Of a stretch of DNA of 42,894 nucleotides, positions 5,695 to 42,794 are shown in pieces; positions within the stretch are counted from its first letter, which is position 1, and the number at the start of each line of letters is the position of its first letter. This stretch comes from a virus: positions 1-42,894 of IMG/VR virus record IMGVR_UViG_3300021365_000036, one strand, 5' to 3'. Under the pieces are notes generated by a model. That model was not told the origin of the DNA. It saw only the letters and a program-made list of their open reading frames with translations, and searched no databases. A program made the translations under genes and the position numbers.

Positions 5695-6624
5695 ATGAAA
5701 CACGTGATATGGGAAGAAATTCCAACCTATGTTAATCATGACAAAAAGATAGTCGTGTACACACCTGTAAAGTCAGGACACTCAACAATCAAACACCTGC
5801 TCTTAGATAATGGATATACATTAATCACAAAAAAAGAACACATAATAAATCCAGATGATCATCTAACCGATGATTACAGCACTTGTGATTTCTACAGGTT
5901 GATCTGGAAAGATAAACCATATCCATGGATGGAAGCAGAAAATAATGAAGAAAAGTTTATCAAACCATTAACATATTGCCTTAATTTAGAAGAATATACT
6001 TCTTACATGACTGTACGACATCCTGTATCTAGATTTATTAGTGGGTTGTTTACAGAACTAGATCATTCATCTGTGACCATGCTACAAAACTATGCCTGTG
6101 ATGAAACGATAGATTACAATGATAAGATACCTAAAATGGCAAATATGTTTTCATCTTTAATACATCATTTTTGGCAAGGAAACTTAGATAGAATTATCTT
6201 ACCTAATAGGAGTGGGCAATTCGCATCTCATTGTTGGATACTGTGTAGAGAATTCTACAAAGAAAAGTCTATTTATGATACAGTTGATCACCTTTTACCT
6301 TTCGATACTTCTCGAGAAGAGAATGGTTCTGATGTTATTATTGATAATGTAAAGAATCTGAAAAGAGAAGGCATTATCGATGAGATCAATGAGCACATAG
6401 ATTACAAGCAAAACCCTTCCAAAGGAGCAATGTACGATGCTTTAGCAGAGGCAATGACTCCTGGATTTATCGAAGAGATGGAAAATATTTTATTAGAGGA
6501 AATGATCCATATAAAAGTCAATGAAGATAAGTTTGTTGGACGTCGATCAGACAGTCCATTATTCCACTTGTTGGCAAGTATGGGGGAACATCCAGATCAC
6601 TTCGAAGATATCAAAGAAGAGTAA
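5695..6624 (+). CDS. sulfotransferase-like protein
   Basis: A 309-residue protein with both sulfotransferase nucleotide-binding motifs. KIVVYTPVKSGHSTIKHLL (residues about 18-36) matches the 5'-phosphosulfate-binding loop, and YMTVRHPVSRFISGLF (about 104-119; R108, S116) matches the 3'-phosphate motif R-x-P-x-x-R-x-x-S. Members transfer sulfate from PAPS to a hydroxyl or amine on a sugar, lipid or tyrosine. No signal or membrane segment is visible. It lies 3 bases after the KxDG protein, in the late unit, so it may act during assembly or modify a virion or host surface component. The acceptor is unknown. Confidence 0.75.
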   Translation: MKHVIWEEIPTYVNHDKKIVVYTPVKSGHSTIKHLLLDNGYTLITKKEHIINPDDHLTDDYSTCDFYRLIWKDKPYPWMEAENNEEKFIKPLTYCLNLEEYTSYMTVRHPVSRFISGLFTELDHSSVTMLQNYACDETIDYNDKIPKMANMFSSLIHHFWQGNLDRIILPNRSGQFASHCWILCREFYKEKSIYDTVDHLLPFDTSREENGSDVIIDNVKNLKREGIIDEINEHIDYKQNPSKGAMYDALAEAMTPGFIEEMENILLEEMIHIKVNEDKFVGRRSDSPLFHLLASMGEHPDHFEDIKEE

Positions 6625-18195: not shown

Positions 18196-20501
18196 TGGAA
18201 AACATTTCTATTGTAAAAAGAGACGGCACGAAAGAAGAACTCAATCTAGATAAGATTCATAAAATGGTATCAGCAGCATGTAATGGTATTACAGGTGTGT
18301 CTGAATCATTGGTTGAAATGAATAGTGGGTTACAATTCTTTGATGGTATAACATCTACAGATATACAAAACATATTGATCAAATCAGCATCCGATCTTAT
18401 ATCTTTAGAAAGTCCAAACTATCAGTATGTTGCTGCCAGATTACTTCTATTCCTTATACGCAAACAAGTCTTTAATACTAAATGGAAAGATCAAGACATC
18501 TATCCACCCATTAAAGACATGGTTATCCGAAACAATCAGCAAGGTGTGTATGATGGCAGTTTAATAACATACTACACTGATGAAGAATGGGATAAGATAG
18601 ATTCTTTTATCAAACATGATAGAGATTTAGAATTTACATATGCTGGTTTACGACAAGTGGTTGATAAGTATCTGGTACAAGATAGATCAACAAACATAGT
18701 TTTTGAAACACCACAGTTCATGTACATGTGCATCGCATGTGTACTCTTTCATAACTACCCGAAAGAAACCAGACTCAGTTATATAAAGAGGTATTACGAT
18801 GCAATTTCAACATTTAAAATCAACATTCCGACACCGATTATGGCAGGTGTGCGAACTCCTCTTAGACAGTTTGCATCATGTGTTCTTGTTGATACTGACG
18901 ATACTTTGGGTTCTATTTTTAGTTCTGATATGGCTGTGGGTCGTTATGTTGCTCAAAGGGCAGGAATTGGTATCAATGCTGGTAGGATCCGTGGGATCGG
19001 TTCGAAAATTCGAGGAGGAGAAGTTCAACATACAGGAGTTATTCCCTTCCTTAAAAAATTTGAAGCAACAGTTCGTTGCTGCACTCAAAATGGAGTACGA
19101 GGTGGTTCAGCAACAGTGCATTTCCCTATATGGCATGCTGAAATCGAAGATATCCTCGTTCTCAAAAACAACAAAGGATCTGAAGACAACCGAGTCAGAA
19201 AACTCGACTACAGCATCCAACTCAGTAAACTCTTCTACGAAAGATTCTTAAGTGATGGTGAGATAACCTTATTTTCTCCACATGATGTTTCAGGATTGTA
19301 TGATGCATTTGGTACACCTGAGTTTGACGAGATGTATGAGAAGTACGAAAGAGCAACTTCTATACCCAAAAAGAAAGTAAGTGCTAGAGAATTGATTACA
19401 GGTTTGCTTAAAGAAAGAGCAGAGACTGGCAGAATCTATATCATGAACATTGATCATTCTAACAGTCATAGTTCATTCTTAGATAAAATCAACATGTCTA
19501 ACTTGTGTCAAGAAATTACCTTACCCACATATCCTATAGACCACATTGATGGACAGGGTGAGATTGCTTTATGCATTTTATCTGCTATTAATGTGGGCAC
19601 ACTTAAAGACGATCTATCTGAATTGCCTAATCTGTGTGATTTGGCAGTAAGAGGTCTAGAAGAAGTTATCGATTATCAGCAATATCCAGTTATCGCAGCA
19701 GAAAGATCTACTAAGTCTAGAAGAAGTTTAGGAATAGGATACATAGGATTAGCACATTATCTAGCAAGACATAAAGTAAAGTATTCTGATCCAGAAGCAC
19801 ACAAAGTTGTACACGAACTTACAGAAGCATTTCAATACAATCTACTCAAAGCATCTAATGATCTAGCAAGAGAAAGAGGTGCGTGTGATGGGTACGATAG
19901 AACTAAATACTCAGAAGGATTACTGCCTATTGATCACTATAAGAAAGAAGTCGATGAATTAGTTAAACCTGAATACAAATGTGATTGGAATGCTTTAAGA
20001 AAAGATATTAAAGAACACGGACTAAGACATTCTACACTTACAGCACAGATGCCTAGTGAGTCATCTTCAGTGGTATCTAACGAAACCAATGGTATCGAAC
20101 CCCCAAGAGATTTCTTATCTGTTAAAAAATCAAAAAAAGGACCTCTCAAGCAAATAGTTCCAGGATATAAAAAGTTGATGTCTTATTACACTTTGTTATG
20201 GGACATGCCTGATAATGATGGATACATCAAGGTTGTATCTGTAATGCAGAAGTTCTTTGATCAAGGGATCTCAGGTAATTGGTCATACAACCCTGAGAAC
20301 TATGAGAACAATGAAGTTCCTATCTCAATGATGGCGACCGACTTACTCAATACATATAAGTATGGATGGAAAACATCTTACTATCAAAACACTTACGATA
20401 TGAAAACAGACGACAGTGTTGAAGAAGAACAAACACTAAATAAAACTGCGGATCCATTTCAAGTAGAGGATCCTGAGGAATGTGATGCGTGCAATATCTA
20501 A
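18195..20501 (+). CDS. nrdA: NrdA, ribonucleoside-diphosphate reductase alpha subunit (class Ia)
   Basis: A 768-residue catalytic subunit that reduces ribonucleoside diphosphates to deoxy forms. An N-terminal ATP-cone (about 3-92, SIVKRDGTKEELNLDKIHKM) suggests allosteric activity control. The first redox cysteine is C229 in QFASCVLVDTDD. The active-site motif SNLCQEITLPT carries the Asn, Cys and Glu of class I enzymes. The C-terminus ends CDACNI, the cysteine pair that receives electrons from glutaredoxin or thioredoxin. AGAGGA precedes the ATG, and the gene overlaps the primase stop and the following oxygenase. Confidence 0.95.
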   Translation: MENISIVKRDGTKEELNLDKIHKMVSAACNGITGVSESLVEMNSGLQFFDGITSTDIQNILIKSASDLISLESPNYQYVAARLLLFLIRKQVFNTKWKDQDIYPPIKDMVIRNNQQGVYDGSLITYYTDEEWDKIDSFIKHDRDLEFTYAGLRQVVDKYLVQDRSTNIVFETPQFMYMCIACVLFHNYPKETRLSYIKRYYDAISTFKINIPTPIMAGVRTPLRQFASCVLVDTDDTLGSIFSSDMAVGRYVAQRAGIGINAGRIRGIGSKIRGGEVQHTGVIPFLKKFEATVRCCTQNGVRGGSATVHFPIWHAEIEDILVLKNNKGSEDNRVRKLDYSIQLSKLFYERFLSDGEITLFSPHDVSGLYDAFGTPEFDEMYEKYERATSIPKKKVSARELITGLLKERAETGRIYIMNIDHSNSHSSFLDKINMSNLCQEITLPTYPIDHIDGQGEIALCILSAINVGTLKDDLSELPNLCDLAVRGLEEVIDYQQYPVIAAERSTKSRRSLGIGYIGLAHYLARHKVKYSDPEAHKVVHELTEAFQYNLLKASNDLARERGACDGYDRTKYSEGLLPIDHYKKEVDELVKPEYKCDWNALRKDIKEHGLRHSTLTAQMPSESSSVVSNETNGIEPPRDFLSVKKSKKGPLKQIVPGYKKLMSYYTLLWDMPDNDGYIKVVSVMQKFFDQGISGNWSYNPENYENNEVPISMMATDLLNTYKYGWKTSYYQNTYDMKTDDSVEEEQTLNKTADPFQVEDPEECDACNI

Positions 20502-21360
20502 AGTATTAGATCACTCAGGAATGTCTGATACTGCTTTATCTTTTAGAACTAATCGATATGTTGTGTTAAAAAACTTTATTCCCGAAGGGATGATTGAGTT
20601 TGCAAAACATAGTTGGAGAAGAACTGAAAACTCAGAACAATGGGGTATGGGTGGTGAAGAAGAGAAATCAGTAGTTCCTACACCTCATGGTAGAGAACAA
20701 ACCGAGTATGTATCTGAGAACATGGCAAATGTTCCTTTTGGTGAGTCAATGCTCATCATGTTGAAGAAACCTTTACAAGAAGCATTAGAATTGTCTTTAG
20801 TACCAACATATAGTTTTGGTAGGACTTACTATCGAGATGCTAGACTGTTTGCCCATACAGATCGACCTAGTTGTGAAGTGTCAATGACATTTCCAATAGA
20901 ATATGAAACTGACGATAAGAAACCATGGTCAATATGGGTACTCGGTGATAAGAACTATGTGGGTATGAATTACCAAGAAGCATGGGAATATGTACAACAC
21001 AAAAACTTTGAAGAAAGGTTTGCGATGGGTGCCAAAAGAGTATTCTTAGAACCTGGAGATGTATTAGCATATCAAGGATGTAATGCTATACATTGGAGAG
21101 ATAAGTTAGTAGGAAAATTCTCAAGACATATCTTTGCACACTATGTTGATGCCAATGGACCTCTATATAGAGGGTGTGAATCATTAAGATACGATGGTAG
21201 AGAAAGTGTTTATGTTGATCATAACCATTCTACTATAGCAGAAAAAGAAAAATCCATATATGGACAAATGTTACAAGAAAAAGGTGAAGTAGCAATGCGA
21301 GCATGTGCAGACATTACAGACCCTTATACAAACGAACCAATTATAGATGAGTATATTTAA
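20485..21360 (+). CDS. 2OG-Fe(II) oxygenase-like protein between nrdA and nrdB
   Basis: A 291-residue protein. Iron ligands are visible as LFAHTDRP (H124, D126) and the distal GCNAIHWRD (H203), with KFSRHIF (R214) positioned to bind 2-oxoglutarate. GDVLAYQG precedes the distal His as in the double-stranded beta-helix fold. Start: ATG 20485 with GAGGA 5 bases upstream is preferred; GTG 20482 and ATG 20521 are alternatives. It overlaps nrdA by 17 bases and nrdB by 14, so it is co-translated with the reductase. The substrate is unknown; a nucleotide-, protein- or small-molecule-directed hydroxylation is possible. Confidence 0.75.
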   Translation: MRAISKVLDHSGMSDTALSFRTNRYVVLKNFIPEGMIEFAKHSWRRTENSEQWGMGGEEEKSVVPTPHGREQTEYVSENMANVPFGESMLIMLKKPLQEALELSLVPTYSFGRTYYRDARLFAHTDRPSCEVSMTFPIEYETDDKKPWSIWVLGDKNYVGMNYQEAWEYVQHKNFEERFAMGAKRVFLEPGDVLAYQGCNAIHWRDKLVGKFSRHIFAHYVDANGPLYRGCESLRYDGRESVYVDHNHSTIAEKEKSIYGQMLQEKGEVAMRACADITDPYTNEPIIDEYI

Positions 21361-22671: not shown

Positions 22672-22939
22672 AAGCAAAAAAACTGAAACAGTAAAAGAAC
22701 AAGCAGAAGTTGTAATTTATAGTAAAGACAACTGCCCTTATTGTGTAAGAGCAGAAGATCTAGCAAGATCACAAGGATTTACTATAGAAGTTAAGAAACT
22801 TAATGAAGACTTCTCTAGAGAACAACTCTTTGAAGAGTTTCCAGAGGCAAGAACTTTTCCACAGATTATTTTTAAAGGTGAGAAGATCGGTGGTTATGAT
22901 GCTTTCTTATCTCTTACAAATAAAGCACAAAAAACTTAA
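22664..22939 (+). CDS. grx: glutaredoxin
   Basis: A 91-residue thioredoxin-fold protein with the dithiol active site CPYC (C24, C27), the cis-Pro motif TFPQI and GGYDAF, all glutaredoxin signatures. It most likely supplies electrons to the phage ribonucleotide reductase encoded just upstream, whose NrdA ends in a Cys pair. A 12-residue Lys/Glu N-terminal extension precedes the fold. Its stop overlaps the next start (TAATG). Confidence 0.9.
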   Translation: MPKSKKTETVKEQAEVVIYSKDNCPYCVRAEDLARSQGFTIEVKKLNEDFSREQLFEEFPEARTFPQIIFKGEKIGGYDAFLSLTNKAQKT

Positions 22940-23118
22940 TGACTTCATTGACAGATACATATACAAGATACATCATTCATTGTGAGGAGTGTGATGCTGA
23001 TTGTTCTGTTGAACATAATTTAAAACTTCCTTACAGATTACATTTTTGCCCATTTTGTGGCAGCCAATTAAATTTAGATGACGGAATCGACGAGAACGAG
23101 AACTTCTACGACGAATGA
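22939..23118 (+). CDS. small zinc-ribbon protein (59 aa)
   Basis: A 60-codon frame with ATG overlapping the glutaredoxin stop, and its own TGA overlapping the next ATG. The product contains HCEECDADC and FCPFCGSQLN, a C-x2-C pair on each side as in rubredoxin-like zinc ribbons, and an acidic tail (DDGIDENENFYDE). The overlapping junctions and conserved Cys spacing support it as real. Such mini zinc ribbons can bind DNA, RNA or protein; role unknown. Confidence 0.7.
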   Translation: MTSLTDTYTRYIIHCEECDADCSVEHNLKLPYRLHFCPFCGSQLNLDDGIDENENFYDE

Positions 23119-23702
23119 ACATAATTGGTATAGACTATGCCATGGGTTGTCCAGCAATCTGTGGTTTTAAAGGATCCCCTGAAAAGCAATTCCTGTATGA
23201 GGATTGTGAATTTCATTACCTGATAGATAAAAAGAACCCACCATACACGACGAATATTCAAGGTGACATCAAACCTGAATACAACTCACAAGAGGAGCGA
23301 TTTGATTGGATTGCTACATGGACTTTATCACAAATTCTATGTTACGATCCAGATCTAGTCGTGCTAGAGGACTATAGTTTTGGCAGTAAAGGTAGAGTGT
23401 TCCACATTGCTGAGAACACTGGTTTACTTAAACACAAACTATTCAAAGCAAACATACCATTTATTGTAGTGGCACCAACTACAGTAAAGAAGTTCGCAAC
23501 TGGAAAAGGTAATGCGAACAAAGAAAAGATGTATGAGTGCTTTACAGAGCAGACAGGTGTAGACTTACGAAAACAACTAGACACTACAGTAGAGCATCCG
23601 ATATCTGATATTATTGATGCTTTCTACATAGCAAAATATGGATATACAGAACTTATTAGACAGAGCAAACTGCCTCTGCGAGATGAAGTTGATCAGTCCT
23701 AG
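23115..23702 (+). CDS. RuvC-like (RNase H-fold) Holliday-junction resolvase-like nuclease
   Basis: A 195-residue protein. The first strand has IGIDYAMG (D7), the second acidic residue is in VVLEDYSFG (E85), and the C-terminal acidic pair is in ISDIIDAFYIA (D165, D168). VVAPTTVKKFATGKGNANKE is a typical RuvC-family helix and strand. These acidic residues would coordinate Mg2+ for cleavage of branched DNA. It would resolve junctions made by UvsX-driven recombination, alongside or instead of a gp49-type enzyme. The start overlaps the preceding zinc-ribbon gene. Confidence 0.8.
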   Translation: MNIIGIDYAMGCPAICGFKGSPEKQFLYEDCEFHYLIDKKNPPYTTNIQGDIKPEYNSQEERFDWIATWTLSQILCYDPDLVVLEDYSFGSKGRVFHIAENTGLLKHKLFKANIPFIVVAPTTVKKFATGKGNANKEKMYECFTEQTGVDLRKQLDTTVEHPISDIIDAFYIAKYGYTELIRQSKLPLRDEVDQS

Positions 23703-24267
23703 TGACTCAGAAATAGATTCTTTAATATCAGAAGCGACCAATTCGATGACTCGATTCTATACTGAGTTTGCTCCTGAACCACCCAAAGAACTTAACTTCC
23801 AGAAGGATGCTTACTTCTCAACCAATTATATCAATTACAATTTAGAGCAGAATGTTGCTGTACATCCACCAAAACTACACAAAGCAAATGCTGATAAAGT
23901 AAATATGCTAGACTCTGAAGTGGTTAAGTCATTCATGAAGAAACACTTTGATATGAATCTAGACTTTGCTTGGTGCGAATATGGTTGGAGAGATCATGTT
24001 CTTTGGCATGTAGATTATGCTCCTGATCATCAGAATGAATACACAGACCCACTCATCTTGCCCTTATCTTCAGATTGGACTTTCGCAATCAAAAGTAAGA
24101 ATGGTTCGACTCACAAACTAAAAGCAACGAAATACAAACCCTTTATATTTGATGCCTCTTTACTCCATTCTGTAGAAAAAGATCATCAACACCCTGCTAA
24201 ATTTCTATCTCTTAGATTCTTTAGCAACTTCAAAGACATCGCAGAACATATCGCTTCGAACATCTAA
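23683..24267 (+). CDS. 2OG-Fe(II) oxygenase-like (double-stranded beta-helix) protein
   Basis: Start chosen at ATG 23683 (MKLISPSDSE), which overlaps the nuclease end by 20 bases; a start 45 bases earlier would overlap more. The 194-residue product has HVLWHVDYAPD (H109, D111), FDASLLHSVEK (H162) and LSLRFF (R178), the H-x-D...H...R pattern of 2-oxoglutarate/Fe(II) dioxygenases. The N-terminal 90 residues are helical, with no recognised domain. Substrate unknown. It is one of five proteins with this pattern in the window. Confidence 0.65.
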   Translation: MKLISPSDSEIDSLISEATNSMTRFYTEFAPEPPKELNFQKDAYFSTNYINYNLEQNVAVHPPKLHKANADKVNMLDSEVVKSFMKKHFDMNLDFAWCEYGWRDHVLWHVDYAPDHQNEYTDPLILPLSSDWTFAIKSKNGSTHKLKATKYKPFIFDASLLHSVEKDHQHPAKFLSLRFFSNFKDIAEHIASNI

Positions 24268-25827: not shown

Positions 25828-26524
25828 CTACTGTGTTCTGAGTTATCCCAGAACTTCTAGTGTAGCACTTACACAAACTCTGATGAGACTCTGGGAAACA
25901 AGAGAAGGAAAGTTTCTTAACTTACCAGAAACTATGTGGGCAAGTGGTGAGGGTGTACAACTATACAAACATGGATACTCTAGTTGGTCTGGTAACTTAC
26001 CAGAAGGCAACCCTCCTTTTAAATTAGAAGGTGGCATGGTTGCACCAGAACATGTTCCAGGAATGTTGACTTTTTTACACAATAACAATTACATTCCTAT
26101 CTTTATAGATAGAGACCCCTATGAGAACCTGAAATCTTTTTACATTTCAGCATGTTCACATTTTCATGAATTCTTTTCATTTAAATCTAGAAACAAAGAA
26201 ATGGAAACCCCAAGAGTGCTAGGTGATAGGGTGACAGAGTTTAATTCTTGGACCTTAGAAGAAAGAATGGAAAAGATGAAGACTTGTGCACAGATTGTTA
26301 TGGATTATAGACAACGAGATGCTGATCTAAGAAAAAAGATAGACAACCATGCAGTAATACCACACTCTTTGATCAAAGATGATGTTACAAATGCATTTCC
26401 TTTACTCAACATAAAGGTAGATAAAGAAACAAGATTCTACATTCGAGTTAAAAGATCACAACCTGTAGAACTTACAATAGAAGAAGAAATTAAATTAAAA
26501 GAATTTGCGGAACTCATGATATGA
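25802..26524 (+). CDS. sulfotransferase-like protein
   Basis: A 240-residue protein. NYCVLSYPRTSSVALTQTLM (about 9-28) has the P-R-T-S-S loop in place of the 5'-phosphosulfate loop P-R-S-G-[ST], and YIPIFIDRDPYENLKSFYIS (about 97-116; R104, S112) provides the 3'-phosphate-like motif. The middle is unlike the other sulfotransferase-like proteins here, so these were not recent duplications. The start overlaps the mini zinc ribbon, and the end overlaps the prolyl-hydroxylase-like gene, suggesting the two are co-translated. PAPS use and acceptor are unproven. Confidence 0.6.
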   Translation: MTNNIKLPNYCVLSYPRTSSVALTQTLMRLWETREGKFLNLPETMWASGEGVQLYKHGYSSWSGNLPEGNPPFKLEGGMVAPEHVPGMLTFLHNNNYIPIFIDRDPYENLKSFYISACSHFHEFFSFKSRNKEMETPRVLGDRVTEFNSWTLEERMEKMKTCAQIVMDYRQRDADLRKKIDNHAVIPHSLIKDDVTNAFPLLNIKVDKETRFYIRVKRSQPVELTIEEEIKLKEFAELMI

Positions 26525-27126
26525 TGGAAAACACTACATTTGAGATGAAAGAATTTATCGGTGTCTTTGAGAATGCAATTACAGATCGGCATTGCGAAGA
26601 ACTGATCGATGCATTCAAAACCAGCAAAGAAATGGGTCAGACAAGAATGCGACAAGAGTATGATGATTCATTGATCACTGGTAAAGATGACGAATCAATG
26701 ACTCTCGCAGAACCTAGTCCAGAACTGTCTAAGATTACTTTTCAAAACCAAGCAGGTTTCTTAGAGTATATGAATGATGAAATCGTAGAGGCATATGTCA
26801 AACAACATCCGATACTTGCTGAGAATCCTAGATGTGTGTTTGAGGGTAAAGTGCAAAGAACACTTCCTGGACAAGGTTATCACATTTGGCATTGTGAACA
26901 AAATGGTACCAAGACTCATGATAGAGATAGATTCTTAGCATGGTCTGTATTCCTGAATGATGTTGAAGAAGGTGGCGAAACAGAATTCCTACATCAACAC
27001 TTACGATTTAAACCTAAAGCAGGAACAGCACTTGTATTTCCTGCATACTTTACTCATTTGCATCGAGGGAATCCACCACTCAGTGGTGAGAAGTACATAG
27101 CAACAGGTTGGGTTGAATACTTTTAA
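26524..27126 (+). CDS. prolyl 4-hydroxylase-like 2OG-Fe(II) oxygenase
   Basis: A 200-residue protein (ATG 26524; ATG 26521 is also possible). It has the phage P4H pattern GYHIWHCEQ (H123 and E125 as H-x-E), RFLAWSVFLNDVEEGGETEF (the strand after the first ligand), AGTALVFPAYFTHLHRG (distal H178 or H180) and GEKYIATGW (K190 for 2-oxoglutarate). This is a near-complete P4H core and the clearest oxygenase in the window. Members hydroxylate proline or other residues in proteins. It overlaps the sulfotransferase-like gene. Confidence 0.85.
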   Translation: MENTTFEMKEFIGVFENAITDRHCEELIDAFKTSKEMGQTRMRQEYDDSLITGKDDESMTLAEPSPELSKITFQNQAGFLEYMNDEIVEAYVKQHPILAENPRCVFEGKVQRTLPGQGYHIWHCEQNGTKTHDRDRFLAWSVFLNDVEEGGETEFLHQHLRFKPKAGTALVFPAYFTHLHRGNPPLSGEKYIATGWVEYF

Positions 27127-28488: not shown

Positions 28489-28740
28489 ATGTACTTAATG
28501 ATTGAATGCCCCAAGTGTGGTAAGAAAAGAATGGACTGTGAATGTATGACTCAAAATGAACAAGTGAATAAAATAGAATGGTGGCATCATGATTGTCCCG
28601 ATAGTGGACCGACTGATACTGCGATGGGTGAAGATTGTAATTGGTGTCCTGCCAAATCTCCAAAGAAGAAAGAAAAAGAAGGATCTTTCTATGGATATAA
28701 TGAAAAGGCAGATAATTACTTTCCTGAAGTAGATGATTGA
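28489..28740 (+). CDS. small Cys/His-rich protein, possible leaderless late gene
   Basis: An 83-residue product. CPKCGKKRMDCEC, then HHDCPDSG and CNWCPAK give several C-x2-C or C-x-C groups, suggesting one or two zinc sites. The first ATG (28489) lies 5 bases after a perfect late box; ATG 28498 (MIECPKCG) is the alternative. No Shine-Dalgarno precedes either. The end overlaps the metallopeptidase start by 8 bases. Function unknown. Confidence 0.7.
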   Translation: MYLMIECPKCGKKRMDCECMTQNEQVNKIEWWHHDCPDSGPTDTAMGEDCNWCPAKSPKKKEKEGSFYGYNEKADNYFPEVDD

Positions 28741-33300: not shown

Positions 33301-33986
33301 TGGAAAAGATCTCAAAAGACGGAAAAACATTCTACAGAAGTAGGATATTCAAACATGCTGAGCAAAAAGTCAACATCTGTATACCCTGCCCAATCGCAGA
33401 CACAATAAATGCTAAGACTCCAGAATGTCCAAGTGGTTGGTTGGTTTTTGTTGGCAAATCTATACGATTCTATGTCAATGAAGATTGGAAAAAGAAACTC
33501 TCTACAACTAAAAACAAATGGGATGTTTCTGAACGCATGTGGCAGAGCAAAGTAAAAGGTGAAGCAAGCAATAATGATTATGTAACTTATGCATTTGATG
33601 AAGAACTTCTCAAAGATAAAACTGACTGGAAGGCAGGGGATGACTTACTGTTTGAACACATTATTCCAAAAACAGGTATAGACTATATTCAAATATCATT
33701 TCATAAAAGAGATGAAGATATGCCTAAAATGATGTATGCAACACAAGAAAAAGAAATCTATCGAGTTATTAAGAACACACTATTGATTCAAGGTGATGAA
33801 GATCTTGCTAAAACTTTAGAAAAGAATCAAGCATTTGTTGAGATGAAAAATATAGAGTCTCAAGTAGATGGTGAAATTGATTCTGTCAAGATCACTGTTT
33901 GGGATGGTACAGGATCCATTCTACATGAATTCGATAGTGATGCATCGGAGCAACAGTTAATCAATGTTCAACCTGTCGAATTATAA
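33300..33986 (+). CDS. protein of unknown function
   Basis: A 228-residue product overlapping the preceding stop (TAATGG). It starts MEKISKDGKTFYRSRIFKHA and has a Cys pair near the N-terminus (NICIPCP), a beta-rich middle (GWLVFVGKSIRFYVNEDWKK) and an acidic C-terminus (VDGEIDSVKITVWDGTGSIL). No family recognised. Its end overlaps the following sulfotransferase-like gene by 23 bases, so the two are probably co-translated. Confidence 0.65.
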   Translation: MEKISKDGKTFYRSRIFKHAEQKVNICIPCPIADTINAKTPECPSGWLVFVGKSIRFYVNEDWKKKLSTTKNKWDVSERMWQSKVKGEASNNDYVTYAFDEELLKDKTDWKAGDDLLFEHIIPKTGIDYIQISFHKRDEDMPKMMYATQEKEIYRVIKNTLLIQGDEDLAKTLEKNQAFVEMKNIESQVDGEIDSVKITVWDGTGSILHEFDSDASEQQLINVQPVEL

Positions 33987-34980
33987 TTACGAAACCAGAG
34001 ATATCCCAGAACAATGGCATGCTTATGTTGAAGGATTGAATCAGCATTATGGCAACTTCAATGACTTTGGTCGACAAGTTCTAGAGAATAATCTTATACC
34101 CCACAGACTCAAACAATACTTTGGTCTCAAAGCAGAGTTTGAAAAGCATGACAATCTAGATCATGACTTTCCTCTAATACAAATAATGTCTATGCCCAGA
34201 AGTGGGTCAACTTATCTACATCGATGTTTAGCAACATCAGGCATCTTTCATGGTCCACAGTTCTTTGAGTTTCAGCAACCATTACCTATCACGGATGATA
34301 TTAATAGACAAAAGAAGATAGATGATTGTAAAAAAATCACAGAGTTGTTTCAATTCAAATCATTTGGTGGAACACATACAGTAGGAGCAGAAGATTTTGA
34401 AGACGATCCGCAAGCATTATTTCCACCCATGTTGGCAGACAGTATTCACTTTGCATTTCGATGTAAACCATTTGTTGAATATTGTCACCAAAGATACAAG
34501 AAAAACAACGATGCTCTCATATGGCAAAAATCATTTTATAATTTGCTATGGAGAAATAAACAAGCAGAGTTCTTTCTCTGTAAAACCCCACTCTTAACAG
34601 CAAACAGTGTAAAAGACTTTAAAGAAGTGTTCCCTAATTCTAAAATCATCTGGATCACACGTGACAAAGATGCTCAGAAAGAATCTCTTACGAATGCCTT
34701 GTATAACTATAGAAAGAATTACACTAACATATCAAAGGTAGAATGCAATCTAGATGCATATGATATCAATCGAAATGCTACAGAAAGATATCGCGATATG
34801 GTGTCAGTAGACCATTTACATGTTACATATGATGAATTAGTACAAAATCCAATGAGAATTATGTCTAAAATATTTGAATACTGCAATCTAGATGCAACTA
34901 AATACTATGGCAAGATGGAAACTGGAATTGCTAACTTAGTTGAAATAAGAAAAGCATTTGGTGCGATTCCTCAAAAGTAA
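33964..34980 (+). CDS. sulfotransferase family protein
   Basis: A 338-residue protein and the most canonical of the four sulfotransferase-like genes here. The 5'-phosphosulfate loop is IMSMPRSGSTYLHRCL (P-R-S-G-S/T-x-L at about 78-85). The 3'-phosphate motif is KIIWITRDKDAQKESLTNAL (R233, S241). HVTYDELVQNP further on is the usual C-terminal signature of the Sulfotransfer_3-type family. Expected to use PAPS to sulfate a carbohydrate, lipid or protein. The N-terminal 70 residues are an extra helical region. Acceptor unknown. Confidence 0.85.
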   Translation: MFNLSNYNYETRDIPEQWHAYVEGLNQHYGNFNDFGRQVLENNLIPHRLKQYFGLKAEFEKHDNLDHDFPLIQIMSMPRSGSTYLHRCLATSGIFHGPQFFEFQQPLPITDDINRQKKIDDCKKITELFQFKSFGGTHTVGAEDFEDDPQALFPPMLADSIHFAFRCKPFVEYCHQRYKKNNDALIWQKSFYNLLWRNKQAEFFLCKTPLLTANSVKDFKEVFPNSKIIWITRDKDAQKESLTNALYNYRKNYTNISKVECNLDAYDINRNATERYRDMVSVDHLHVTYDELVQNPMRIMSKIFEYCNLDATKYYGKMETGIANLVEIRKAFGAIPQK

Positions 34981-35413: not shown

Positions 35414-35586
35414 GTCCAGAACAAATTGCTTACATCATAACTATAGTAATGTGCGCAGTTATATCTTACAATAAAGGTCTGCGACAAGGAGCCACAGCGA
35501 TGGTGACTGAATTGACAGATACAAACATATTAAGCAAAAAGAACTTAGAGAAGTTCATTAAAATTAAAGCAGAGGAAGTTCAATGA
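35410..35586 (+). CDS. small single-pass membrane protein (58 aa)
   Basis: ATG 35410 overlaps the preceding stop (ATGA), and TGA 35584-35586 overlaps the next ATG. An N-terminal hydrophobic helix (QIAYIITIVMCAVISY) is followed by a polar helical tail (ATAMVTELTDTNILSKKNLE). Overlap junctions on both sides support it. Function unknown. Confidence 0.65.
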   Translation: MSPEQIAYIITIVMCAVISYNKGLRQGATAMVTELTDTNILSKKNLEKFIKIKAEEVQ

Positions 35587-36143
35587 TAACAGTAGAGATA
35601 ATCTCAACATTTACATACACACCCAGTGATGTAGAATCTTTTTATACAAACATGACTACCAATGTGTTTGACCTCTCAACCAATAAGTACAGATCTGGTG
35701 CAACTTTTATACAAAAAGATGCCTTCAACAACTATGTTGATAATGGATCTATCAGCGATGTTACAGTTGAAAAGATTGATTCTAACACCAAAGTTAAACT
35801 TACAGTTGAATGGTACAACGCAGCAGATTGGTGTGAGTTCACAAAAGGAGAGGATTCTAATGCAGCAAAACTAGCAGATGCATCCCATTCTAGCATGAAA
35901 CACTTACACATGAAAGATAGAATTGATAATGCCATGGTAGTAGACTATGATGCCCAAGACGATCAAGGCACACTTTTTTACAACAACTATTGTAATTGGG
36001 TATTAGCAAACAAACAAGCACATCTAGATGAAGGCAAATCTGCAGATTTCGCTCATTGCGAAATCTTATTATTAGATGACAAACATGCTAGTTATTCTGT
36101 ACCATCAGGTGGATGGGCATGGAGTCAATGGGATAATTCATAA
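35583..36143 (+). CDS. tandem paralogue family, copy 1
   Basis: A 186-residue product, the first of three adjacent related genes. Shared features are an N-terminal MITVEIISTFTYTPSDVESF strand-helix, T-N-V-F-D...T-N-K-Y, then AFNNYVDNGSISDVTVEKI, a KLTVEWYNAADWCEF strand-turn, and a C-terminal LLLDDKHASYSVPSGGWAW. Beta-alpha alternation suggests a small alpha/beta fold. No known family. The divergence between copies is large, so the duplication is old or under diversifying pressure. Confidence 0.7.
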   Translation: MITVEIISTFTYTPSDVESFYTNMTTNVFDLSTNKYRSGATFIQKDAFNNYVDNGSISDVTVEKIDSNTKVKLTVEWYNAADWCEFTKGEDSNAAKLADASHSSMKHLHMKDRIDNAMVVDYDAQDDQGTLFYNNYCNWVLANKQAHLDEGKSADFAHCEILLLDDKHASYSVPSGGWAWSQWDNS

Positions 36144-36652
36144 TGATAACCCACAGCATTACATATACAGTCGATAATGCAATTGACTTCGCGAACAATA
36201 TAGGTTCTGTTATTATAGATACCCATACAAAAAAATATCGCGATGTTGCAGCAACTTATTTTTCTGCTGTGTCAGCATTTAACAGTGCTGTTGATGCTGG
36301 ACATATCAATGCTGTAAAAATAATTGAGAATGACTCAACACATGTCACTCTCTCTATCATCTGGAACGACACATCAGAATGGTTGAATTATATGAAGACT
36401 AATTGGGAAGGAGAGACAGGCATTTCTATCAATTATAGGAATACTCGAGCATTATGGAATGCAACGATAAATTATTCTTATGATGAAACCAATGAAACAG
36501 CAAGAGACCATTATGAAGAATGGTGTAATTATGTACTGAAAGAGGTTTCTCAAAAAGAAGAACATTGTAACATATTTACACTTTCAGCATTAGATGATAA
36601 ACACCCACAGTTTGCTGCTCCAGCAGAAGGATGGGCAATACCTTCCGAATAA
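36143..36652 (+). CDS. tandem paralogue family, copy 2
   Basis: A 169-residue product overlapping copy 1 by one base. Corresponding segments: MITHSITYTVDNAIDFANNI, DTHTKKYRDVAATYF, AFNSAVDAGHINAVKII, VTLSIIWNDTSEWLNYMKTN and LSALDDKHPQFAAPAEGWAI. Positions of AFN...VD.G.I..V, the W-containing strand turn and the LDDKH...P..GW ending align with copies 1 and 3. Function unknown. Confidence 0.7.
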   Translation: MITHSITYTVDNAIDFANNIGSVIIDTHTKKYRDVAATYFSAVSAFNSAVDAGHINAVKIIENDSTHVTLSIIWNDTSEWLNYMKTNWEGETGISINYRNTRALWNATINYSYDETNETARDHYEEWCNYVLKEVSQKEEHCNIFTLSALDDKHPQFAAPAEGWAIPSE

Positions 36653-36655
36653 ATT

Positions 36656-37144
36656 ATGATCACAACAACCAATCGATATAATGTAAGTAATGTGAATGAA
36701 TTTCATCATCATATGGTTACAAATGTCATCGATCCAGAAACTAATCAGTATGTCGTAGACATCATCCCAATCTTTTCAGGTGCACAGACATTTAATGATT
36801 ATGTAGACGCAACAGGCATCATAGAATCTGTAGAACTAATCAAAGGCAATGATTATGTAGAACTACAGATCAAATGGTCAAATGAGGAGACTTGGTTATC
36901 ATTCTGCAAAGAAAACTTTGGAACTGATAACGGATTATCCAATCAGCATAGGTTTGTCAGATCAAATTACAATGGTGATATTAAATATGAGTCCGACACA
37001 GAATCAGGACAAGCACTTATTAATGATTTTTTAGATTTTATAGTTGAAACAGTAGATTCAATGGACGATGAAGATAAGAACAAAACTTATGCAAGTCTTC
37101 CCCTAACCGATAGCAGGTTTAAAATACCCGAATCTGGTTGGTAA
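36656..37144 (+). CDS. tandem paralogue family, copy 3
   Basis: A 162-residue product 3 bases after copy 2. Corresponding segments: MITTTNRYNVSNVNEFHHHM, DPETNQYVVDIIPIF, TFNDYVDATGIIESVELI, VELQIKWSNEETWLSFCKEN and LPLTDSRFKIPESGW. It lacks the KHA/KHP element of copies 1 and 2 (DSRF instead) and is shorter at the C-terminus. Function unknown. Confidence 0.7.
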   Translation: MITTTNRYNVSNVNEFHHHMVTNVIDPETNQYVVDIIPIFSGAQTFNDYVDATGIIESVELIKGNDYVELQIKWSNEETWLSFCKENFGTDNGLSNQHRFVRSNYNGDIKYESDTESGQALINDFLDFIVETVDSMDDEDKNKTYASLPLTDSRFKIPESGW

Positions 37145-37160
37145 ATAAAACCTTTACATT

Positions 37161-37775
37161 ATGAAAATTCTCACATTAGGTGGTCGCACAGGACTAGGAA
37201 AAGCACTCTACGAAGAGTTATCCCCCCAACATGAAGTACTCCGAACAACTAGAAGTTGGCAACGCACACAGAAACAAAAAATAGATAAATACATTCAGTT
37301 GAATCTCAACAATCTCATGCAAGTCTCAAATTTTGTAGACAATGCACCCGATGTTGATGTTGTGATAGGAGTTGCGCATCAATGGGAAGTAGAGAGAGAA
37401 GATTCCGACATGATGATGACAGGAATGAATGGTTCTCCTGCCATGGATCAAAATTTATGGACACTCAACGAAAGGTTTACTGCTAATGTGACTTCTTACT
37501 TAGCAATCTATCGAGAGTATGTCAAGAGAGGTACACCCATTGTTCACATCAGTAGTATTGCTGCCGATGCTAATCATAAAGACATTCGTGTCTCTGCTAG
37601 TTATCGGATATATAAGTTATCGCAAGTTGAAATCTGCAAAGCACTCACCCAAGAAGCAGGTGGAAAAATCCTTGTCCTCGATCCAGGAGTATGGGGACTT
37701 CAAGACAGCATTGCGCAAATTAAAGCAAAAGAAATAGCAAAAATGACTATCTCACACTATGAGAAATACTTATAA
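37161..37775 (+). CDS. short-chain dehydrogenase/reductase-like protein
   Basis: A 204-residue Rossmann-fold protein. The nucleotide-binding loop ILTLGGRTGLGKAL (G-x-x-x-G-x-G, about 7-13) is followed by TTRSWQR, whose Arg residues could favour NADP(H). The catalytic region has VHISSIAAD (Ser) and ASYRIYKLSQVE (Y-x-x-x-K). VLDPGVWG is the conserved P-G turn. It is shorter than typical SDRs (about 250) but holds the full catalytic set. It lies just upstream of the Rieske-type catalytic-domain pair, so it may act in the same pathway. Confidence 0.75.
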   Translation: MKILTLGGRTGLGKALYEELSPQHEVLRTTRSWQRTQKQKIDKYIQLNLNNLMQVSNFVDNAPDVDVVIGVAHQWEVEREDSDMMMTGMNGSPAMDQNLWTLNERFTANVTSYLAIYREYVKRGTPIVHISSIAADANHKDIRVSASYRIYKLSQVEICKALTQEAGGKILVLDPGVWGLQDSIAQIKAKEIAKMTISHYEKYL

Positions 37776-37782
37776 TATAACT

Positions 37783-37950
37783 ATGGAAGATTGGGGTAGT
37801 TTGAACGATACATTAGAAGAACAGTTAAGAAGGCAGATTATCGCACTCAAGAAAGAGAACAAAGCATTAACATCAGAAAATGCTGTTCTCAAAACCAATG
37901 TAAACCAATTACAAAAACTATACTATGAAACTCTCAAGGAGAAAAAATGA
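37783..37950 (+). CDS. small coiled-coil protein
   Basis: A 55-residue product starting MEDWGSLNDTLEEQLRRQII. The ATG at 37783 is preceded by TATAATATAACT and is preferred to an in-frame ATG 24 bases earlier inside the SDR gene. Leu/Ile heptads with KKENKALTSENAVLKTNVNQ give a clear leucine-zipper-like coiled coil. Its end overlaps the next gene by 4 bases. Function unknown. Confidence 0.65.
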   Translation: MEDWGSLNDTLEEQLRRQIIALKKENKALTSENAVLKTNVNQLQKLYYETLKEKK

Positions 37951-38190: not shown

Positions 38191-38730
38191 ATGTATTCTG
38201 AACAAGCACAAAGGAAGATCGATAAGTATGAAATATACAAAGAGCATTACTTAACTCTTCCTGCACCAGCATTCATCATGACAATGAATGCTTTTGATAT
38301 TCCTCATCTAGAACATCTACACAACTTTACTAATGTAGAAGTGGTACACACTTCATTTGAAAGATATGCTTTTATATGCTACAAGGCAACAATGCCTGGA
38401 GGCAAGCATAATTTCATGACCAAAATTGCATCTCATAAGAGAGACGAGTTAATCGTTGACAATTACAACCTGAATGGTGACTATATGTACACAACGATAG
38501 AAACCAATGAAAATATAGATGAAAACTCTTGTAAACACAAAGAAATCTTCTTATATAACACTGAATCTCCCAAATTCAACCGAGTTTTTATGGAGTCAGT
38601 GTTTAAAGCAAAGCAACCTATAACAAGAGAGGATGAAGACATATTGGATCAAGTGTCTATACATATTCCAGAATCAGATATTGATCCTATATTGGATAAT
38701 TATATAAAATGGTACCAGAATCAGACTTAG
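38191..38730 (+). CDS. Rieske-oxygenase-type catalytic domain without Rieske domain, copy 1
   Basis: A 179-residue product (ATG 38191 after AAGGAC). TMNAFDIPHLEHLHNF gives N33, D36, H39 and H44, the spacing D-x2-H-x4-H of the mononuclear-iron site in ring-hydroxylating oxygenases of the KshA type. REDEDILDQVSIHIPESDID near the end parallels the Q-D-x-x-I-W segment that carries the third ligand (candidate D148), and LDNYIKWYQ parallels the usual final helix. No C-x-H...C-x2-H Rieske cluster exists. Substrate and electron source unknown; the assignment is by motif. Confidence 0.6.
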   Translation: MYSEQAQRKIDKYEIYKEHYLTLPAPAFIMTMNAFDIPHLEHLHNFTNVEVVHTSFERYAFICYKATMPGGKHNFMTKIASHKRDELIVDNYNLNGDYMYTTIETNENIDENSCKHKEIFLYNTESPKFNRVFMESVFKAKQPITREDEDILDQVSIHIPESDIDPILDNYIKWYQNQT

Positions 38731-39260
38731 TTTTGCATGATGTCTACACAATGGACATTCCCACGAACTACATTAATATTACACGGAATGCATTCGACAT
38801 TCCTCATTTCACTACAGTACATGGTTGGGGCAAGGTAGAAGTCGTAGACTATGGTTATGAACTATGCCATGACTATTATGATCATGTAGCATACATAGAG
38901 ACTTACTTATCAGAACCCAGAGATGTAAAAACTTTACCAGAAGGCAAGAGATCCTTTGTAAGAGTAAGAAGTTTTGACCCATTCAACAATCGATTAGATA
39001 TCTATGTAGATGATGTACATTTGGTGACCAATCTAAACAAACTTACAGAAGTTGATGAGCATGAAACAGAACTCACAGCAGAGTTCTGGTTGCCAGAAGG
39101 CATGCCACACACTGTGGGTGATTTATTTATGGCAGATGCTAAAATGCAAACCGAGCAAGATCTGCCTATCTGGAAAACAATTGATCATACAAAGTTTACA
39201 GCATCAACTGAAATGGAAGAATTTTATGAAGAATGGATTAGTCACTTTACGACACCATAA
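38709..39260 (+). CDS. Rieske-oxygenase-type catalytic domain without Rieske domain, copy 2
   Basis: A 183-residue product overlapping copy 1 by 22 bases (ATG 38751 is an alternative start). ITRNAFDIPHFTTVHGWGKV gives N27, D30, H33 and H38. MQTEQDLPIWKTID (D151) closely matches the E-Q-D-x-x-I-W segment of KshA/DAF-36-type oxygenases, and EMEEFYEEWISHF matches their last helix. The Rieske [2Fe-2S] domain is absent. Its final codons (HFTTP, stop) overlap the -35 box of promoter P7. It aligns with copy 1 over its whole length. Confidence 0.65.
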   Translation: MVPESDLVLHDVYTMDIPTNYINITRNAFDIPHFTTVHGWGKVEVVDYGYELCHDYYDHVAYIETYLSEPRDVKTLPEGKRSFVRVRSFDPFNNRLDIYVDDVHLVTNLNKLTEVDEHETELTAEFWLPEGMPHTVGDLFMADAKMQTEQDLPIWKTIDHTKFTASTEMEEFYEEWISHFTTP

Positions 39261-39281: not shown

Positions 39282-39818
39282 ATGAATATATTTTATCTAG
39301 ATAAAGACCCTAAGATCGCAGCAAGATTACATTGTGACAAGCATGTAGTCAAAATGATTATTGAGTATGCCCAACTGATGAGCACTGCTCACAGAATGTT
39401 AGATGGCGAACACTACATTGATGCCAGTAGTGGAAGAAGAATCCAAAGATGGAGATTGAGTGGCAATGCAGAAGCAACTCTTTACAAAGCATCACATGTA
39501 AACCATCCGAGTGCTATATGGACTCGAGAGAGTGCTTACAATTATCACTTCCTTTACAAATTGTTCTGTTCTCTATGTGATGAATACACTAGAAGATATG
39601 GTAGAGTTCATGCTACAGATGAAAAACTTAGAGAGATACTTGCTTTACCTCCAAAGAACATACCTATCAACAAAAGGTTCTTTGCTCCTCCGCAAGCAAT
39701 GCCAGATGATGTAAAGGTAGAAGATTGCGTAGAAGCATACCAAAATTATTATCGCGAATACAAAAAAACATTCGCTAAATGGACAGATAGACCAACACCA
39801 GCATTCATGGCAAACTAA
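39282..39818 (+). CDS. conserved phage protein of unknown function (possible DNA-repair family)
   Basis: A 178-residue product: MNIFYLDKDPKIAARLHCDK, then HVVKMIIEYAQLMSTAHRML, ATLYKASHVNHPSAIWTRES, and LPPKNIPINKRFFAPPQAMP. This is a family well represented in T4-like marine phages, with conserved His, Asp and Arg residues. Some related sequences are labelled pyrimidine-dimer glycosylase-like, but I see no decisive catalytic signature. The ATG lies at the predicted start of the P7 transcript, without a Shine-Dalgarno. Confidence 0.75.
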   Translation: MNIFYLDKDPKIAARLHCDKHVVKMIIEYAQLMSTAHRMLDGEHYIDASSGRRIQRWRLSGNAEATLYKASHVNHPSAIWTRESAYNYHFLYKLFCSLCDEYTRRYGRVHATDEKLREILALPPKNIPINKRFFAPPQAMPDDVKVEDCVEAYQNYYREYKKTFAKWTDRPTPAFMAN

Positions 39819-41346: not shown

Positions 41347-41483
41347 GCACAAAATATCAAGATGAGTGGGAAAGAATCTTTGGTTCTAAAGAACAAGAGA
41401 AACAAGATATCCTAGATATACTGAATCCAGATAAGTTGCCAGACATAGACGATTTAGATGTATCCAAGTTTCATAAAGTATAA
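41310..41483 (+). CDS. conserved small phage protein (MAGKGS family)
   Basis: A 57-residue product starting MAGKGSKRRPEVGTKYQDEW, then ERIFGSK and an acidic tail. M-A-G-K-G-S/D-x-R-R-P with a Y-x-x-x-W/Y-x-R-I-F-G segment is a small protein found in many unrelated phages; function unknown. It starts 36 bases inside the previous gene and overlaps the next start by 26 bases. Confidence 0.75.
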   Translation: MAGKGSKRRPEVGTKYQDEWERIFGSKEQEKQDILDILNPDKLPDIDDLDVSKFHKV

Positions 41484-42144
41484 GAACATAGAAGTCCCTG
41501 ACATTGCTTATGAGTTTTGGGATGCAACACTCAGATACGAAAAAGAAACAACTGATCGTAACAAATATATCTTCAAACCATCTGACGATGGTATCTATGA
41601 AACTGATATCACTGGTGAAAGAACCAGTGGAGATGAAGCAAAAGAACATCTCTCAGAATTAGCAGATCAATTTGTCAAGAGTATCTTTCTCGATTGGTCA
41701 GGTATTAATGGACTAGTTTACATGCCTCAATCTGGATATATGACTGTTGGTTCTAGTGTGACTGAACATGTAGATAATCTTATGTTCGCCAAAGATCCAT
41801 TGATCGTATCATTAACAGATATGCATATTGAAGTGAATCGTACATTGTACCCTATACAGAAAGGGGATGTCTGGTCTATACCAACTAATATACCACATGC
41901 TGTACCTGCTTATCCTACAGATATGAAGTGGGCAGGTGTAAGAATGTCTCTAGATCCTTACAGGTGTTCTATAGAACATCTATCAAACATGTTTGAGTAT
42001 GAGCAAATAGAATATGTAGACTTGACTCAAATCAAAGGTGGACTGAAACGAGCATGGGGTGATGAAGAAGTTAAGGGTGGAACGCAAACTAACTTGATGG
42101 CAAAGAGTCCTTTGAATATAGATGTTAACAAATTAAAAAAATGA
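41458..42144 (+). CDS. 2OG-Fe(II)-oxygenase-like protein, tandem copy 1
   Basis: A 228-residue product. MPQSGYMTVGSSVTEHVDNL supplies H104-x-D106, KGDVWSIPTNIPHAVPAY the distal H147, and WAGVRMSLDP R162: the H-x-D...H...R layout of 2-oxoglutarate/Fe(II) dioxygenases on a double-stranded beta-helix, closest in feel to aspartyl/asparaginyl hydroxylase types. The N-terminal 80 residues are helical and specific to this pair. It aligns along its length with the next gene. Substrate unknown. Confidence 0.65.
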   Translation: MYPSFIKYKNIEVPDIAYEFWDATLRYEKETTDRNKYIFKPSDDGIYETDITGERTSGDEAKEHLSELADQFVKSIFLDWSGINGLVYMPQSGYMTVGSSVTEHVDNLMFAKDPLIVSLTDMHIEVNRTLYPIQKGDVWSIPTNIPHAVPAYPTDMKWAGVRMSLDPYRCSIEHLSNMFEYEQIEYVDLTQIKGGLKRAWGDEEVKGGTQTNLMAKSPLNIDVNKLKK

Positions 42145-42794
42145 GTTCAGTCTATCCAATATACATCAAATACAAAACTCTGAATGAGATCCCTCAATCT
42201 GTGTTTGATTTGTGGGAAGTGACTGCTCGAATGAAACTCTCAGAGATGACAGAACAGTCGCACTATGTGATAGATAAGTCGCGACATCTAAATGATGATG
42301 ATGTCGATATTCTTCATGATGCATCTCACAAAGCACTGTGTGATATATTTCCCGATCGAAAAGATAAGATCGATAAACTTTCCACTATATGCAGATTTTC
42401 ACCCCAAAGTGGAATTATGCCTAAAGGACATATGGTTGCTGAGCATGTAGATCCTGAGTTTTTTCCTACTGATTTGACAATCATACCTTTTACTGATATG
42501 CCTTTTAGTATTAATGGGGAAGATTATCTCTTTAAAAGAGGAGAAGTAGTTTCTTACATGTCTTCGCTTCCACATGGTATAGAAAAGACTCAAACACAAC
42601 TCATATATGTTGGGATACGATGCATCAATCCTACAGGTTTGTACATAGAACAATTAAAACCCTTCTTTGGGTTTGAAGAAAGTAAAGATGTTCCTTTAGT
42701 GAAAAGGAAATGGAAACACTACAAAAATAAAGAGGGATGGAACGAACAACAGTTTGAAAATCTCAAAACCACCTTACGATCACTTGATGAATAA
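42141..42794 (+). CDS. 2OG-Fe(II)-oxygenase-like protein, tandem copy 2
   Basis: A 217-residue paralogue of the previous gene, overlapping it by 4 bases (ATGA). SPQSGIMPKGHMVAEHVDPE gives H102 and D104, RGEVVSYMSSLPHGIEKT gives H145, and IYVGIRCINP gives R160. All four candidate active-site residues are kept although overall identity is modest. Its C-terminus differs (LVKRKWKHYKNKEGWNEQQF). Both copies are therefore likely to be active enzymes with different substrates or contexts. Confidence 0.65.
   Translation: MSSVYPIYIKYKTLNEIPQSVFDLWEVTARMKLSEMTEQSHYVIDKSRHLNDDDVDILHDASHKALCDIFPDRKDKIDKLSTICRFSPQSGIMPKGHMVAEHVDPEFFPTDLTIIPFTDMPFSINGEDYLFKRGEVVSYMSSLPHGIEKTQTQLIYVGIRCINPTGLYIEQLKPFFGFEESKDVPLVKRKWKHYKNKEGWNEQQFENLKTTLRSLDE

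Follow-up and report, generated by a model that had tools for sequence, protein, structure and literature searches.

Tandem phage genes for predicted KshA-type catalytic domains without a Rieske domain

The A/B pair and the slot it occupies

The window analyzed here is the whole 42,894-nucleotide stretch of the viral record IMGVR_UViG_3300021365_000036. It carries two adjacent genes, here called A and B, which overlap by 22 nt on the plus strand in the following setting.

37161 to 37775, plus strand: SDR-like NAD(P)-dependent oxidoreductase (matches to Pfam Epimerase/RmlD and NCBIfam SDR, all weak)
37759 to 37950, plus strand: ORF for a 63-aa small protein between the SDR and A, coiled-coil-like by eye, present in contigs L001 and L003
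37947 to 38189, plus strand: ORF for a conserved phage protein of 80 aa immediately upstream of A, with neither Cys nor His
38191 to 38730, plus strand: gene A, 179 aa, predicted KshA-like catalytic (START/helix-grip) domain, without a Rieske domain
38709 to 39260, plus strand: gene B, 183 aa, KshA_C catalytic domain protein, without a Rieske domain
39282 to 39818, plus strand: Pyr_excise/phrog_624 conserved flank (Pfam 4.4e-5, phrog_624 8.9e-57), the right edge of a variable slot

An earlier, sequence-only reading of this DNA had described an overlapping pair of divergent copies, each with the motif NAFDIPH-x4-H. Both ORFs lie where they were placed, the motif is present in each, and the two proteins are indeed paralogues (BLASTP E 3e-7, 31% over 70 aa). 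Outside the A/B orthologues, the pattern N-x2-D-x2-H-x4-H was found only in a few short antisense frames among 8,631 reading frames from 103 loci; on homology, fold, and conservation we reject a chance origin of the motif in A and B. The SDR gene had been placed just upstream of A. It does lie upstream, but two small genes (63 and 80 aa) intervene, and its assignment is weak (RmlD E 3.9e-4 and Epimerase E 8.5e-4, both under the cut-off).

The A/B pair is also found in five IMG/VR contigs: one is almost the same in sequence (98-99% identity), and the other four form a second lineage at 60-66% identity. The gene order SDR, small ORF, 80-aa gene, A, B, Pyr_excise-like gene is kept in both lineages as far as the contigs reach, and in the viral scan the SDR had matches only in contigs that also carry A/B. 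Within the second lineage the dN/dS ratio is 0.12-0.15; between the lineages, where synonymous sites are near saturation, it is 0.19-0.26. Given this conservation and these ratios, A and B are functional proteins under purifying selection, not remnants. In the cultured-phage collection, searches with A, B, and the SDR found no homologue (one unconvincing partial match, E 1), plasmids gave matches at chance level only, and a single pattern-based scan covering 84,980 species genomes gave no cellular relative passing E 1e-3. The best matches of nrdA (71-73% identical) are in marine Synechococcus T4-like phages of 168-229 kb. To judge from sequence, the source is a marine T4-like phage, presumably with a genome well over 100 kb; the nrdA identity does not establish the host.

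Several other genes in the window deserve mention in their own right. Upstream of the SDR, at 35583-37144, are three tandem paralogue-like genes (186, 169, and 162 aa), none of them significantly matched in Pfam or PHROG; two of these occur in the second lineage, together with a 2OG-Fe(II) oxygenase (L003, 2563-3114). Sulfotransferase-family genes are found at 33964-34980 and 5695-6624 (one matching Sulfotransfer_3 at E 2.3e-20, the other Sulfotransfer_2 weakly). A 2OG-Fe(II) oxygenase is encoded at 26521-27126 (PF13640, E 1.8e-11), and the genes at 20482-21360 and 23638-24267 resemble it by eye, with no significant Pfam match. At 41458-42144 and 42141-42794, an adjoining diverged tandem looks cupin-like or oxygenase-like, with H-x-D and a later His by eye, and has no firm family.

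What occupies the position of A and B varies among related phages. In 80 related loci centred on the Pyr_excise-like gene, some of them cut short upstream, neither A, B, nor the SDR was present; the 80-aa gene had homologues in 20 of the 80, and other flanking genes were common to these loci. In two of the nearer relatives, L046 (3595-4975) and L055 (4400-4990), the slot between the 80-aa and Pyr_excise-like genes, homologous to window positions 38191-39260, holds one or two 2OG-Fe(II) oxygenases. These belong to another O2-activating non-heme iron class, and their presence in the same slot lends circumstantial support to A and B being oxygenases. This is a variable position where related phages put different O2-activating non-heme iron enzymes.

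Homology, predicted fold, and the putative iron site

B matches the Pfam family KshA_C (PF19298) over residues 11 to 158 with E 1.2e-4 and 22.7 bits, the curated cut-off being 23.3, and the match is common to all six members of the B family. A has no Pfam match. The sequence-only reading had proposed a profile comparison with the oxygenase C-terminal family. We made it with hhalign against a bacterial KshA_C set (15 matches in 9 genomes, from 398 Pseudomonadota genomes), and the outcome was clear for B (97.3% probability, E 1.9e-11, 158 columns), with an alignment spanning the iron-site helix and the QDxxIW segment, and weak for A by itself (20.7%). By these sequence comparisons, B is a homologue of the C-terminal catalytic domain of KshA, just under threshold in Pfam and evident from profiles. 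A is a diverged paralogue of B with the same predicted fold.

The model of A, built from an eight-row alignment, has pLDDT 80.9 and pTM 0.80. Its best 23 rows in VIA-align are all Rieske oxygenases, led by GxtA (7szf_C; Z 14.6, rmsd 2.8, 168 residues aligned), with KshA5 (4qdc) at Z 13.6 and dicamba monooxygenase at Z 13.2. Overall, the matches to the catalytic domains of GxtA, SxtT, KshA, and dicamba monooxygenase have Z 13-14.6 over 168-176 of the 179 residues of A; the first non-oxygenase row is a START protein at Z 11.0. The model of B is of low confidence (pLDDT 55.9, pTM 0.57). Foldseek ranked SxtT/GxtA first for it (E 4e-5), whereas VIA-align gave Z 12.8 for PR-10 proteins versus Z 11.4 for Rieske oxygenases, the latter with longer coverage (163-170 residues). 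Because the PR-10 proteins score higher, fold alone is not decisive for B. The START/helix-grip fold suggested for both proteins thus agrees with the predicted structures, that of A being closest to Rieske-oxygenase catalytic domains. The solved oxygenases matched here have longer catalytic domains than A or B.

The putative iron-site segments are as follows.

38287 to 38322, plus strand: iron-site motif of A, N33-A-F-D36-I-P-H39-L-E-H-L-H44, aligned to SxtT and invariant in the A and B clades
38632 to 38634, plus strand: D148 of A, probable third (carboxylate) iron ligand, in an invariant column shared with D151 of B and the ligand Asp of KshA_C
38787 to 38822, plus strand: iron-site motif of B, N27-A-F-D30-I-P-H33-F-T-T-V-H38, invariant in all members of both clades and aligned with 15 bacterial KshA_C proteins
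39159 to 39161, plus strand: D151 of B, within EQDLPIW, which lines up with the Asp of QDxxIW in bacterial KshA_C and is probably the third iron ligand

A search of PDB chain sequences gave chance matches only for B. For A the best match was SxtT (E 0.27), which we used solely because the alignment falls on the iron site. In this weak alignment, N33, D36, H39, and H44 of A fall on N158, D161, H164, and H169 of SxtT. The iron ligands of SxtT are His164, His169, and Asp280; Asp161 and Tyr76 together form the bridge to the adjacent subunit's Rieske cluster, and a water is held by Asn158 (PMC7293229). In a joint alignment, N27, D30, H33, H38, and D151 of B occupy the same columns as the conserved N/D/H/H/D of bacterial KshA_C. 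A C-terminal segment of the form EQDxxIW had been claimed for both proteins; B has it, but A has REDEDIL instead, with D148 in the same column and a local pLDDT of only about 61 along that stretch. At the level of sequence, then, both proteins carry the 2-His-1-Asp arrangement of KshA_C, N-x2-D-x2-H-x4-H plus a downstream Asp. Only 24 columns are invariant when both paralogues and both lineages are compared (about 24% identity), and they include all five site residues.

Taken together, paralogy with B, the iron-site alignment with SxtT, and the predicted fold place A with the oxygenase catalytic domains. The earlier proposal that these are catalytic domains therefore holds, on the fold, on the two His, bridging Asp, and Asn of A that fall on the SxtT site by sequence, and on the third Asp, which falls on that of KshA_C. 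We also considered whether A or B could be an RO beta subunit and rejected this, since beta subunits adopt the NTF2/SnoaL fold and lack an iron site.

The missing Rieske half and how electrons might arrive

Rieske oxygenases are defined by the iron-sulphur centre and the iron site together, and the alpha-subunit chain itself carries a Rieske [2Fe-2S] domain at its N terminus. Neither A nor B has one. As the sequence-only reading had claimed, there is no CxH...CxxH in the real genes and no PF00355 match in six frames of A, B, or the window; only 32 residues in A and 26 in B precede the iron-site motif. In contrast, the sampled bacterial KshA_C proteins, with open frames of 331-441 aa, have the N-terminal Rieske motif CxH...CxxH in 15 of 15 cases. 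Since a Rieske domain was sought in the chain and not found, A and B are not Rieske oxygenases in the full sense.

A separate donor was also sought. The six pair-carrying phage records, all fragments of 10-43 kb, contain no Rieske domain and no plant-type ferredoxin (Fer2). As these are pieces of a larger genome, a Rieske gene may lie elsewhere in the phage, or in the host. No credible Rieske match was found in 43 related phage records without A/B; one weak match in a distant phage (L103; 13 bits, in a 57-residue frame) was judged to be chance. Canonical Rieske plus KshA_C proteins were absent from the viral contigs as searched with two motif patterns, and the papers searched for phage-borne Rieske proteins gave nothing relevant. 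The window has two small Cys-rich ORFs with CxxC pairs (22939-23118 and 28489-28740), which we considered as donors and set aside: the pairs are zinc-ribbon-like, with no Rieske or plant ferredoxin motif.

We put at about even chances that A and B are tandem Rieske-less KshA-type catalytic subunits, reduced in trans and oxygenating a substrate. On this reading, each would fold as a helix-grip domain with one Fe(II) at its putative 2-His-1-Asp site (H39/H44/D148 in A, H33/H38/D151 in B), and the two probably assemble together. Both retain the conserved Asn, and also the Asp through which the iron of an ordinary enzyme is linked to the next subunit's Rieske cluster. Electrons would arrive in trans from a separate Rieske/ferredoxin-type protein, of the host or from the rest of the phage genome; O2 would then be activated and a substrate hydroxylated, by analogy with NdmC and the extra Rieske cluster of NdmD. 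Iron binding, catalysis, an A-B complex, and electron transfer in trans are thus what we infer for the pair. The sequence-only reading had offered three functions (borrowing a host ferredoxin, acting as a hetero-oligomer with an outside partner, or serving as repurposed binding proteins), and we favour trans electron delivery, since the bridging Asp, dispensable in a plain binding protein, is invariant along with the ligands. The points against it are that no donor was found in the six fragments, that B is sub-threshold and A without a Pfam match, and that the B model has a pLDDT of 56. The SDR could process the hydroxylated product or feed in the substrate; SDRs carry out hydride chemistry, and this one is not likely to be a one-electron donor to A or B.

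The invariant residues also bear on a second reading, that A and B are repurposed START-fold binding proteins that keep the fold and metal site, perform no redox chemistry, and serve in ligand binding or modification or in a structural role. It would explain the lack of a donor in the available fragments, and the B model does also score high against PR-10/Bet v 1 and PYL ligand-binding proteins. However, the bridging Asp, the water-positioning Asn, and the third ligand, all needless for a plain binder, are invariant in both paralogues and lineages, and the A model favours oxygenases over START/PR-10 proteins by at least 3 Z units. We therefore consider this reading unlikely.

One can also envision an oxygenase independent of any Rieske protein, driven by peroxide, a small-molecule reductant, or a flavin reductant, and substituting functionally for the 2OG-Fe(II) oxygenases that fill the slot in related phages. 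That occupancy speaks for it, as does the fact that no Rieske partner was seen in the six fragments. Yet the Asp that in relatives serves for electron entry from the Rieske cluster is retained, and the sequences of A and B bear no sign of a flavin site; we regard such an enzyme as quite improbable.

Least probable, and in our view very doubtful, is that A and B join or jam host Rieske oxygenases, entering a host trimer or capturing a host Rieske protein or ferredoxin and so redirecting or blocking its chemistry: electron transfer from subunit to subunit by way of the bridging Asp (PMC7293229) means that a mixed trimer could work with the Asp kept, but with no near cellular relative in the single pattern-based scan of the 84,980 species genomes, a matching host subunit is not apparent.

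Known systems and what the pair may mean

Among known enzymes, KshA (PF19298, the 3-ketosteroid 9-alpha-hydroxylase oxygenase) is like A and B in N-x2-D-x2-H-x4-H and the terminal aromatic segment, and with B its family shares catalytic homology over 158 columns and the QDxxIW third ligand. It differs in the N-terminal Rieske half described above, where A and B have none and form a tandem pair. SxtT and GxtA are the closest solved folds, and the iron site of SxtT matches that of A residue by residue; unlike A and B, these enzymes are trimers with a Rieske cluster in each chain (PMC7293229).

Another parallel is NdmC, a non-heme iron monooxygenase that has no Rieske cluster and is believed to draw on the extra one in its reductase NdmD; in the NdmCDE caffeine N7-demethylase, NdmE is a GST-like scaffold (PMC4408171). 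It is a bacterial protein with NdmD and NdmE as partners, whereas no such partners are present in the phage fragments. The chlorophyllide a oxygenase (CAO) of Micromonas is, like A/B, encoded as two chains (PMC9615114), but it is eukaryotic and photosynthetic, has a predicted Rieske centre, and works with a reductase. By analogy, A and B most probably function as NdmC does in its split system, with no partner seen in the fragments. There is thus precedent for a Rieske-less subunit served by a Rieske cluster in trans; the tandem, phage-encoded, Rieske-less pair is new. To our knowledge, very few enzymes are known in which a Rieske-less catalytic half borrows electrons from another protein.

A bolder version of the favoured reading, which we think unlikely, is a heteromeric oxygenase specific to phages, built from two distinct Rieske-less subunits, that takes electrons straight from a host ferredoxin, with no dedicated Rieske domain. 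If it were true, the catalytic half of a Rieske oxygenase would be able to work alone, and this would be, as far as our searches show, the first such viral enzyme. The A/B pair provides a natural test of the catalytic half by itself and of the modularity of electron delivery. It also puts a second class of non-heme iron oxygenase into a slot that 2OG-Fe(II) enzymes fill in related phages, which suggests that the O2-dependent modification of a molecule of the host or the phage is important in infection.
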